Of a DNA stretch of 64,000 nt, positions 56,719-58,944 are shown piece by piece (positions within the stretch are counted from its first letter, which is position 1; every line of letters starts with the position of its first letter). The translations under genes and the position numbers were made by a program. This DNA is from Paenibacillus sp. R14(2021) (GTDB lineage: Bacteria > Bacillota > Bacilli > Paenibacillales > Paenibacillaceae). The notes beneath the pieces were generated by a model. The model searched no databases. It was not told the origin of the DNA and saw only the letters and a program-made list of their open reading frames with translations. The DNA lies in assembly GCF_019431355.1 (NCBI RefSeq), contig NZ_CP080269.1, forward strand, positions 5,901,001 to 5,965,000. Reading direction: 5' to 3'.

Positions 56719-56993
56719 TGCCAGAGTAAGCCTTTGTTGAAATCTCTCTGATTCTATTGAAAAATAAGGTAGAAATACTGCGCCACGGAATGATTACATC
56801 AGCCCGTTCTGAGCAATTTTCAGAACCTACATATCGAAATAAAATGGATTAAATTGTATTTAAAATGAATAATCATGCTATTAAATAAGAATTTTCAAGG
56901 GAATATGCCCCTTTAACTGCTTTCAGGCTATGATAGACTTTGATATAATGGCCTAACAAGAATGTAGTTTATCACCAGGGGGCATGTATTACT
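56719..56993. other. AT-rich gene-free stretch
   Basis: 275 bases, clearly AT-richer than the neighbouring genes. A TATAAT box at 56944-56949 has only a weak -35 (TTTCAG at 17 bases), and CCAGGGGG at 56975-56982 is the SD of the next gene. No terminator for comEC and no small gene is evident. Confidence 0.5.
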
Positions 56994-58406
56994 TTGTCAG
57001 TTTTCGATGAACAGCGGACAACTATACACTATCAATTTATGCGGTCGGACGCTCATGCTGCCGAAACCATTATGCTGCTGCATGGAAACGGTCTAAATAG
57101 CTCGCATTGGGGAAGCTTGACTGCAGACTTGAACCGAGAATATCATCTGCTGTTAATCGATTTGAAAGCTGGCAGCGAAGAGTCAATAAGTTGGGATCTG
57201 CTCTGCGAGGAGTTATCGGCAGTTACGACGCAGCTTGGCTTAACGTCTATCCATATCATCAGCCATGCATTCGGAGGATCTCTCGGCATTGCGTTTGCCG
57301 GCCGGAATAGTCAGCTCGTCAAATCGCTCATATTGATCTCGATCGTTGTGTTCTATCCCTCGACTGAGTGGAATCAAATCGTGGACGAATATCAGAATGC
57401 CATTAAGCGGTTCGGTTTTCAAGAAGTCATTCACCGCGAAGTTCTTCCGTACTTGACGCTATTAGGCGAGGATGACGAGAGAGTGAAGTCTATCAAGCAA
57501 TCCTACGATGAAATGGATGAGCGCGCTTATAATAAATTGTTTACGCTTCAAATGCTCGATCGGCCCATAGAGGAAGCACGGAGTCTGGAATGTCCCGTAT
57601 TGCTGCTGGCAGGCGAGCGGGATCAATTATACTTGCCAATGCTTCAATCCATTACGACGAGTTATTTTAAGATGGGGAGCTTCCTCATCGTGCCTAATTC
57701 GGCGAATGCGGTATTTATCGATCAGCCGCAGCTGTCGGCGCAGTGGATGAGGGACTTTATTCGCAAAGCGGCCGATGCCAAACAAACCCAGGTACCTAAG
57801 CCCAAATCCAGTATGACCAGCTACTTGCCGTCGCTTGTACAGACGAGCTTGCTGCCTGCACTGGAAACGCTATCATATCCGCAGCAGCATGTTCTGAAGC
57901 TATCACTGCTTCATACCTTCCAGGTTCATATCAACGGCATCCCAGTCACGGAGGGCTGGAACAAACGTTATGCGAAAAATATTATCGCCTATTTGGCGAT
58001 GCATCCTTCATGTACAAGGGAAGAGCTGTGCGAATGCCTGTTTCCCCTGCTGCCGCGCAGCATTGCATTAAATAACGTAAAAGTGTATTTGGGTCATTTG
58101 AAGAAGCTGCTGCTGCTGCCCACTGGAGCTTCGCTTCTTCAATCCAGCCATGGACAGATCTTTCTGGATGCGAAGATCGAATGCGATTTGCAAGCCTATC
58201 TGGCAGCAGTCAAGAGCCTATCCCACTCCGAAGACAGTGCGGGGAAATATGCCTCGGCGCAGGAGCTGCTCCAGACAATCGGCACCGCAGGATTAAATTC
58301 CGGTATCAATGATCCGTGGTTTGCGGACTGCAAGCGTGAGATGGAAGATCTGCTTGTGCGGCTATCGAATTGGTGCGCATCATGGGATTCAAATTCGAAG
58401 GCGTGA
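56994..58406 (+). CDS. Catalytically degenerate alpha/beta-hydrolase fused to a SARP/BTAD-like winged helix
   Basis: 470 residues from TTG 56994, 11 bases behind CAGGGGG. Residues 15-260 are an alpha/beta-hydrolase fold: oxyanion loop MLLHGNGLNSSHW, nucleophile elbow SHAFGGS (90-96), acid strand LLLAGERDQ (Asp210), and C-terminal IVPNSANAVFIDQP. In active relatives the elbow is GHSxGG and the last motif carries His; here Ala92 and Asn238 take those places. Residues 300-395 match a SARP/AfsR-type winged helix (LHTFQVHINGIPVTEGWNKR, AYLAMHPSCTREELCECLFP, LNNVKVYLGHLKKLL), followed by a short helical BTAD-like tail. Probably a ligand-binding transcription factor. Confidence 0.7.
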   Translation: MSVFDEQRTTIHYQFMRSDAHAAETIMLLHGNGLNSSHWGSLTADLNREYHLLLIDLKAGSEESISWDLLCEELSAVTTQLGLTSIHIISHAFGGSLGIAFAGRNSQLVKSLILISIVVFYPSTEWNQIVDEYQNAIKRFGFQEVIHREVLPYLTLLGEDDERVKSIKQSYDEMDERAYNKLFTLQMLDRPIEEARSLECPVLLLAGERDQLYLPMLQSITTSYFKMGSFLIVPNSANAVFIDQPQLSAQWMRDFIRKAADAKQTQVPKPKSSMTSYLPSLVQTSLLPALETLSYPQQHVLKLSLLHTFQVHINGIPVTEGWNKRYAKNIIAYLAMHPSCTREELCECLFPLLPRSIALNNVKVYLGHLKKLLLLPTGASLLQSSHGQIFLDAKIECDLQAYLAAVKSLSHSEDSAGKYASAQELLQTIGTAGLNSGINDPWFADCKREMEDLLVRLSNWCASWDSNSKA

Positions 58407-58536
58407 ATTTATTGAATCGCTTACTTCGCACTGCACCTGAACAGCAGCAATGAATTCCAAGGCGTCTCAAAGGGCATCCTGATTATCAGAGATCTCAATG
58501 GTCCTATAGAAGAGCTTTGAAAAGGGGCGATTTATT

Positions 58537-58944
58537 TTGAACGGGAAAATACGTATGGGGATGATCGGATCGCTGCTGCTGTGCTCGGCTGCGCTTGCTG
58601 CTTCGGGATGCGGGAAGTCAGCGAATTCGAACAACACGAACACGAATACAGGCTCAACGAATAATGCCGGCTCGGGCGGAGGGCAGGCCATTACGGTCAA
58701 GGCAACCAACTTCAAATTCGACCAAACGGAGATTCATGTGAAGAAGGGTGATAAGGTCACCATTAAACTTGTGGACGAAGCAGGGTTCCATGGGTTCGCA
58801 ATACCTGACTACAACGTGGATATTAAGGAAAATAACGGTACCGCTACTTTTACGGCGGATAAAACGGGTGAACATCCTTATCATTGCTCGATCGTTTGCG
58901 GATCGGGCCATGCCAATATGGTCGGCAAATTAATTGTCGATTAA
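58537..58944 (+). CDS. CuA-type cupredoxin lipoprotein
   Basis: 135 residues from TTG 58537 after AAAGGGGCG. Lipoprotein signal with lipobox ASGC (Cys25), an Asn/Thr/Gly-rich tether (26-50), then one cupredoxin fold. The full binuclear CuA set of cytochrome c oxidase subunit II is present: His85 (FHGF), Cys117 and Cys121 (CSIVCGSGH), His125 and Met128. It would be tethered to the outer membrane face and could carry electrons or copper. No oxidase genes are nearby. Confidence 0.87.
   Translation: MNGKIRMGMIGSLLLCSAALAASGCGKSANSNNTNTNTGSTNNAGSGGGQAITVKATNFKFDQTEIHVKKGDKVTIKLVDEAGFHGFAIPDYNVDIKENNGTATFTADKTGEHPYHCSIVCGSGHANMVGKLIVD

Follow-up and report, generated by a model that had tools for sequence, protein, structure and literature searches.

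Regulation in the style of the SARPs is described mainly for Streptomyces antibiotic clusters, and the classical SARP site consists of heptamer repeats with an 11-bp period near the -35 region; in AfsR promoters the -10 box lies at -12. To our knowledge, few pseudoenzymes have been described that serve bacterial transcription regulators as their sensor half, and we know of no DNA-binding domain in the plant gibberellin receptor GID1 and of none fused to NDRG proteins. For AfsR of Streptomyces coelicolor, the partial texts of PMC10936776 and PMC10972967 describe a winged helix (wHTH) plus BTAD fold, with seven helices in the BTA domain (PMC10936776), and an operator of two 11-bp repeats, the afs box, that spans -40 to -19 (PMC10936776) with the repeat CGTT(T/C)ATCGNN (PMC10972967); in the Streptomyces SARP classes the SARP part is N-terminal (same partial text of PMC10972967). 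EmbR of Mycobacterium tuberculosis, in the incomplete account available, has the wHTH and BTAD fold plus an extra domain, a C-terminal FHA domain and no hydrolase. Among hydrolase folds, GID1 is, in the portion of PMC3531792 that treats it, a receptor that lacks the catalytic His and whose Ser and Asp hold the ligand, and the human NDRG proteins appear in part of PMC7022630 as nonenzymatic hydrolase folds with a substituted triad.

The gene described here joins both kinds of fold. It lies in a window (the whole 64,000-nucleotide stretch of DNA that was analysed) of a 6.0-Mb, single-contig Paenibacillus genome; relatives that carry a species name come from Paenibacillus planticolens, P. aceris and P. 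cremeus, from which the order is presumably Paenibacillales. A sequence-only reading had described ORF 56994-58406 as a dead hydrolase in front of a SARP-type domain, with a nucleophile elbow SHAFGGS holding Ala92 and a His motif NSANAVFIDQP holding Asn238, and these features are as described (Table 1). With the protein alone as query, Pfam returned Abhydrolase_1 at 1e-10, a far poorer match to Ndr (20.9 bits against a cut-off of 23.3) and no match in the C-terminal half, which as sole query also drew no NCBIfam or Pfam match at E<=1. Structure prediction of both domains, proposed as a check, came out in favour of the reading: AlphaFold modelled the full protein as a hydrolase fold, a linker at residues 266-296, a winged helix from residue 300 and further helices (pLDDT 86.8, pTM 0.60, the domains' mutual placing being uncertain), and Foldseek matched the hydrolase domain to esterases. 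The protein thus has the alpha/beta-hydrolase fold and lacks the nucleophile-acid-His triad. Modelled alone, the C-terminal domain reached pLDDT 92.4, and its best Foldseek match in the PDB was AfsR (E 1.2e-5, TM 0.70 on the query), with EmbR the next named (E 7.8e-5).

An OmpR-like winged helix followed by a BTAD, the SARP arrangement, is present, the BTAD being partial: the window domain's model has three helices in the BTA region as against the seven given for AfsR, and its nearest relatives extend some 20 residues further at the C-terminus. Unlike in AfsR, the SARP part is C-terminal, behind the dead hydrolase, with no NOD/TPR part. This sensor-first order is, as had been noticed from the letters, the reverse of that of the Streptomyces SARPs in the partial text of PMC10972967. 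The same genome also encodes a 604-aa protein (L173 1297-3111) with wHTH and BTAD last (Pfam BTAD 5.6e-14) and an N-terminal half without assignment. Directly 3' of the regulator gene lies a cupredoxin-like ORF (window 58537-58944; Cupredoxin_1, 24.8 bits, cut-off 27).

Table 1. Features of the regulator gene and its surroundings (window positions unless a locus is named).
Feature	Position	Strand	Basis or remark
Pseudo-hydrolase SARP-type regulator gene	56994..58406	+	470 aa, TTG start
Alpha/beta-hydrolase domain, about residues 10-260	57021..57773	+	Pfam Abhydrolase_1, AlphaFold model, Foldseek to esterases
Ala92 at nucleophile position	57267..57269	+	alignment, triad census
Asp210, acid kept	57621..57623	+	alignment; Asp in 87/90
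Asn238 at catalytic His position	57705..57707	+	Asn in 75/90, His in 2/90
Low-confidence linker, residues 266-296	57789..57881	+	AlphaFold model
OmpR/SARP-type winged helix, residues 300-397; recognition helix 355-372	57891..58184	+	models, profile search, Foldseek, alignment
BTAD-like helices, residues 398-467, shorter than nearest relatives'	58185..58394	+	alignment, model, Foldseek
Possible gene promoter TTTCAG-N17-TATAAT	56921..56949	+	by eye, putative
110-aa ORF, homologue of small proteins behind the operator-promoter in L008/L009	59039..59371	-	phmmer 1.5e-11, 1.8e-10
Recurrent g1 TGTAACTCTTCTGTAACG site	L174 1501-1518		sites in G304, G306, G309, G316, G317

Searches with the window protein revealed matches at 1e-15 in 52 of the 394 genomes of its taxonomic family, some of the copies being stand-alone or broken, and a profile of the protein family found fused-size matches in genomes of another taxonomic family (f6) of the same order as well. 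Within a 398-genome sample of the phylum, its own genome and G162, of the same taxonomic family, matched at 1e-45, and no genome outside that taxonomic family did at E<=1e-45 with three candidates scored per genome. Plasmid and phage collections gave no match at 1e-10, PADLOC defence models gave none at 0.01, and among the open-licence papers searched, judged by title and opening of the abstract, we recognised no description of a dead-hydrolase/SARP fusion. The alignment shows both halves to be common to the full-length relatives. Our fetched set comprised 90 hydrolase domains; eight more fused-size matches (one each in G429, G438, G450, G452, G459, G472, G487 and G512) were left out, L064-L078, which duplicate loci already collected, were passed over, only one of any set of identical cores was kept, and the triad census left out locus L004 and the fragments of L012, L033, L045, L047, L060, L061 and L062. 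Among the variants were two family genes in tandem in G249 (L039), three family genes in G418, two members whose hydrolase match skips the cap region (L058 2460-4238 and L062 1611-2318) and, in genus g16, seven 301-aa stand-alone dead hydrolases (L051, L052, L053, L055, L056, L057 and L059) with no winged-helix remnant found nearby. An extra N-terminus of L058 was rejected, its ORF being antisense to a GGDEF/EAL-like ORF (by eye).

Evaluating the catalytic positions across the 90 domains, we found that triad loss is family-wide and not confined to one mutated copy. The nucleophile position holds Gly in 67, Ser in 10, Asp in 6, Ala in 3 and Thr, Asn, Glu and Gln in one each; the His position holds Asn in 75, Ser in 7, Tyr in 3, Phe in 2, His in 2 and Arg in 1; and the acid position holds Asp in 87, Glu in 2 and Val in 1, in keeping with the retained Asp210 reported earlier. 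Homologue alignment at residues 92, 210 and 238, likewise a proposed check, showed that Ser and His never occur together (0/90), and all of Ser, Asp and His were present in 13/13 outgroup enzymes. That two triad residues had been lost stands for the window copy, and needs qualifying for the family: among the 11 members of the nearest clade (L001, L005, L006, L008-L012, L081, L085 and L092), position 92 is Ser in nine and Ala in two, and Asn238 is found in all, so that Ala92 is a local change and the loss of His the shared feature. On a quick tree with several long branches, the nucleophile state changed at least 11 times. We consider it very improbable that the domain is still an enzyme with a Ser or Asp nucleophile and a different base: the ten Ser, the six Asp in place of Ser and the 87 acid Asp would allow for such a mechanism, but Ser never meets His and the commonest nucleophile/His-position pair is Gly/Asn, in 56 of the 90.

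The hydrolase domain is nevertheless under purifying selection, with dN/dS of 0.07-0.25 in 23 of 24 pairs (one pair was saturated, and some sequences were used in two pairs); for the 301-aa stand-alone relatives it was 0.13-0.18 in three pairs. Several residues are conserved in the family and absent from the outgroup, namely Ser116 (80/90), Tyr179 (81/88) and Phe241 (77/89), as well as Asn238. One use for such a domain would be a purely structural one, as a dimerisation or protein-protein module of the NDRG kind that senses no small ligand, the regulator being controlled by its amount or by a partner. Pfam Ndr matches 27/32 family members at E<=1 (far more weakly than Abhydrolase_1), NDRG proteins have no triad in the part of PMC7022630 that covers them, position 92 varies among eight residues, and in the seven 301-aa relatives the dead domain persists although no winged helix is attached. 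It is not obvious, however, why a mere scaffold should conserve Asn238, Ser116, Tyr179 and Phe241, and we regard this reading as rather unlikely. The earlier suggestion, made with GID1 as precedent, that the pocket binds a ligand is plausible; Ser and Asp hold the ligand in GID1 (PMC3531792, in part), whereas ligand binding in the family here is putative.

The C-terminal domains were matched unevenly by existing models, with Pfam Trans_reg_C found in 15/32 family members and BTAD in 2/32 (E<=1), and the NCBIfam SARP models BagI/FevR and AfsR in 14/30 and 12/30 at E<=1. A profile of these domains matched EmbR (5e-4) and AfsR (8e-4) in the PDB, both outscored by designed TPR proteins via the TPR-like tail. 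In the alignment with AfsR, for which we read the chain numbers as offset by 20 from those of the paper, R87 corresponds to Arg/Lys363, T88 to Val364, R92 to His/Tyr368 and R94 to position 370, which is Lys in 57/90 rows. The phosphate contacts R87 and R94 given for AfsR in the partial texts thus have aligned counterparts, whereas the base-contact residue R92 is His or Tyr here.

Upstream of many relatives we found an element, TGTAACG-N4-TGTAACG-N10-TAnnAT, that reads away from the regulator; read toward the family gene, its consensus is CGTTACA-N4-CGTTACA. Exact 7-mer direct repeats with a period of 11 occurred in 40 of 90 family upstreams (345 bp; L002-L004, L045, L047, L061, L062, the outgroup L120-L131 and three fragments left out), and repeats at any other period from 8 to 40 in at most 8; among 59 representatives below 70% identity, the figures were 25 and at most 4. 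The double heptamer was present at <=2 mismatches in 42/80 wHTH-bearing rows in the forward direction and 0/80 in reverse, and at <=3 mismatches in 56/80 and 2/80 (L012, L060 and L063, with a truncated or frameshifted C-terminus, are counted among the 80). Control upstreams from a simple ORF caller, which like the control neighbour ORFs include false ORFs, gave 5 forward and 13 reverse sites at <=2 mismatches and 10 and 24 at <=3 (n=628). A close site is missing in some members, with 24/80 upstreams exceeding 3 mismatches and 12/80 exceeding 5. Ten rows lack a complete winged helix; one of them, the broken fusion L050, had a site at <=2 mismatches and the other nine had none, and the element was absent from the upstreams of the seven 301-aa relatives.

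Alignment of the sites revealed a second conserved block at -16 to -11 across 40 representatives with a site (75% identity, as for the -10 spacing; taken from the 56 sites after removal of L090 and L039), which, read on the other strand, is a -10 box. Reading away from the regulator, a hexamer at N10 had at least 4/6 matches to TATAAT in 28/40, the next best spacing reaching 16/40, whereas toward the family gene no spacing exceeded 11/40; allowing N9-N11, the counts were 36/40 away against 12/40 toward. In genus g9 the box lies at N9. An earlier reading of L008-L010, in which a forward promoter carries a repressor site at +1, was rejected because the conserved box fits the promoter that reads away. 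In the sequences, the 17 bases upstream of the -10 box lead to the inter-heptamer spacer and not to a -35 box, which would fit an activator-dependent promoter. With the afs repeats at -40 to -19 and a -10 box at -12, the distance from heptamer to -10 box in AfsR promoters is also 10 bp. The orientation differs, as TGTAACG reads with transcription here and AfsR has CGTT(T/C)AT in the partial text on its operator, so that the contact with RNA polymerase would have to differ too.

Site presence also varied with the recognition helix. Sites at <=3 mismatches accompanied 46/58 members with Arg363 against 5/17 with Lys363, and 46/53 with His368 against 7/24 with Tyr368, counts in which relatedness is ignored; among representatives (70% identity) the comparison for residue 363 was 31/39 with Arg against 3/10 with Lys. 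The window protein has Lys363 and His368.

We then evaluated the element genome-wide. The pattern TGTAAYS-N4-TGTAAYS-N10-TAnnnT gave 27 matches in 25/394 genomes, present in 12/52 carriers of the family against 13/342 non-carriers (Fisher 1.1e-5), with 2 genomes of 394 for the reversed pattern. In carriers, 12/14 matches adjoin a family gene; the strict pattern is missing from 40/52 carriers, the fixed N10 missing the N9 members of genus g9. Among the non-carrier matches, 9/13 belong to two conserved sequences that recur across related genomes, and an orphan copy of the g16 element occurs in G353, where no family match lies beside it and a search of the genome at 1e-10 gave no fused match. Genomes without a family gene also showed two conserved direct-repeat sequences of the form TGTAATCAT..TGTAACC (L252-L254, L256 and L261-L265). 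In genus g9, a single exact double heptamer is present in each of 15/61 genomes, and in 12 of the 15 it lies upstream of the family gene. In 15 further genomes chosen for their family genes, 14/24 sites lay upstream of a family gene, two 3' of one (193 and 1195 bp) and eight elsewhere, with 2 for the control. Five g1 relatives had 17 sites at <=1 mismatch. Five of the 17 precede family genes or follow them closely and have 5-6/6 matches in the N10 box; besides these, L222 scored 6/6.

In 6/6 g1 genomes searched, a conserved TGTAACTCTTCTGTAACG also precedes an acyltransferase-like ORF (by eye) at a distance of about 100 bp. It was rejected as a family element, its -10 score at N9-11 being 0-2/6 in 6/6, and looks like an ECF sigma promoter, for which the consensus is TGTAAC-N16-CGTC. 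TGTAAC-type -35 boxes do resemble ECF promoters, and the element itself could be a repressor operator or belong to another factor such as an ECF sigma. This ECF-like g1 site, the excess of reverse over forward sites in control upstreams (13 against 5 of 628) and the 13 N10 matches in non-carriers are consistent with such an origin. We nonetheless judge it improbable, given the strict tandem repeat of 11 bp, the -10 box of sigma-A type that follows it at N10, the 12/14 carrier matches beside family genes, the lack of the element at the seven wHTH-less relatives and the association of sites with Arg363 and His368 (relatedness ignored).

To the extent that the element marks targets, these are often surface proteins. 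Behind it stand SLH-domain proteins (L139, 1720 aa; L170, 2430 aa; L161, 1593 aa, 588 bp away), a Peptidase_M14 protein, a C39/Cu_amine_oxidN1 protein, a NERD protein and small proteins. Where a clade lacks the element upstream, it may instead follow the family gene closely and stand before the next gene, which is an SLH-like secreted ORF (by eye) in L211, a Cu_amine_oxidN1/NPCBM protein 371 bp away in L143, with a homologue in L239, and a 2985-aa RHS/fn3/PKD protein in L135. ORFs of at least 150 aa starting within 420 bp numbered 31, of which 14 are a g9 gene 194-390 bp away (Pfam Radical_SAM/UPF0004/TRAM) that we take to be a miaB-type housekeeping gene; among the other 17, 13 are signal-peptide-like by a simple rule, in five homologous groups, against 110/554 control neighbours. 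One exact element in G309, at a distance from the family gene, precedes a homologue (37% over 434 aa, 1e-89) of the L139 target, the surface protein that adjoins the family gene in G357.

Smaller ORFs of 48-90 aa with a QLGL-like motif (by eye) lie behind the promoter in L094, L096, L100, L104, L109, L114 and L117, followed in L096 and L100 by an ORF resembling CpsB/YwqE phosphatases (by eye). Conserved neighbours were discarded as a clue to function, the widest cluster covering 6/43 loci and the rest being local synteny. A lone beta-ketoacyl synthase gene (L151 10753-11985) adjoins the regulator in 14 scanned g9 genomes, and g9 loci have an FMN oxidoreductase (Pfam) and rhamnose-type genes (by eye) near it; none of these neighbours is shared elsewhere.

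The window copy is a diverged, atypical member, and no element can be recognised for it. The window is free of sites at <=3 mismatches (2.6 expected by chance). In its genome 22 occur at <=2 mismatches, a number hardly above the 21 of the reversed control, and not one of the 22 is followed at N9-11 by a -10 hexamer of at least 4/6. The sequence-only reading had proposed the upstream and 58407-58536 regions for a DNA-binding check; binding to them is unsupported, since no copy of the relatives' operator is found there, and the protein may bind some other sequence in these regions. The 110-aa ORF, about 630 bp downstream of the regulator gene, has an ordinary promoter, TTGAAT-N16-TATAAT (by eye), and is preceded by a direct repeat TTGAATT with a 12-bp period. 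Either the site that the window copy recognises has changed, or its local target is gone. Outright decay into a gene without function seems a minor possibility: it would account for the lack of an operator nearby or of a convincing one in the genome and for the tail being about 20 residues short, yet 470 codons are open, core residues are kept, a plausible promoter is seen by eye and identity to four relatives of its genus (L008-L011) is 44-50%.

Taken as a whole, the triad census, the fold searches and the SARP-spaced operator beside relatives support the original proposal of a dead hydrolase joined to a SARP-type domain, and fusion, dead triad, purifying selection, SARP fold and the element with its position were all observed by computation. 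Because the enzyme-shaped part is dead and fused to a DNA-binding part, in a family whose relatives sit beside the element, the broken enzyme is probably a sensor controlling genes. We consider it probable that these proteins, found in the window's order, are SARP-type regulators with a catalytically dead alpha/beta-hydrolase domain as N-terminal sensor, the window copy being a diverged member. In many members the winged helix/BTAD part would recognise TGTAACG-N4-TGTAACG (11-bp period), which stands where a -35 box would be expected and precedes the -10 box by about 10 bp. Judging from the position of the element, the regulator would activate the gene behind the promoter, usually the divergent neighbour and in several clades the next gene. 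Its product is often a small protein or else a surface protein of the secreted or SLH type. The dead domain would most likely bind a small molecule or a partner protein that switches activity. DNA binding, the direction of control (activation) and sensing are what we infer from these patterns. Against this model count the orientation of the heptamers opposite to AfsR, the g9 element (box at N9) mostly fronting a miaB-type gene 194-390 bp away, a window genome without a convincing element, the 24/80 upstreams beyond 3 mismatches, the 40/52 carriers lacking the strict form and the 13 non-carriers with the N10 pattern. More tentatively, the family might be a bacterial counterpart of GID1 wired to DNA, in which a hydrolase that lost His, and mostly Ser, became a small-molecule receptor that directly drives SARP-dependent promoters of surface proteins, receptor, operator and target having stayed adjacent in many members.

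With a predicted sensor, a DNA site and neighbouring targets, the family would make ligand screening practical with a one-promoter reporter, and it would extend SARP-style regulation to the control of surface proteins in Bacillota.
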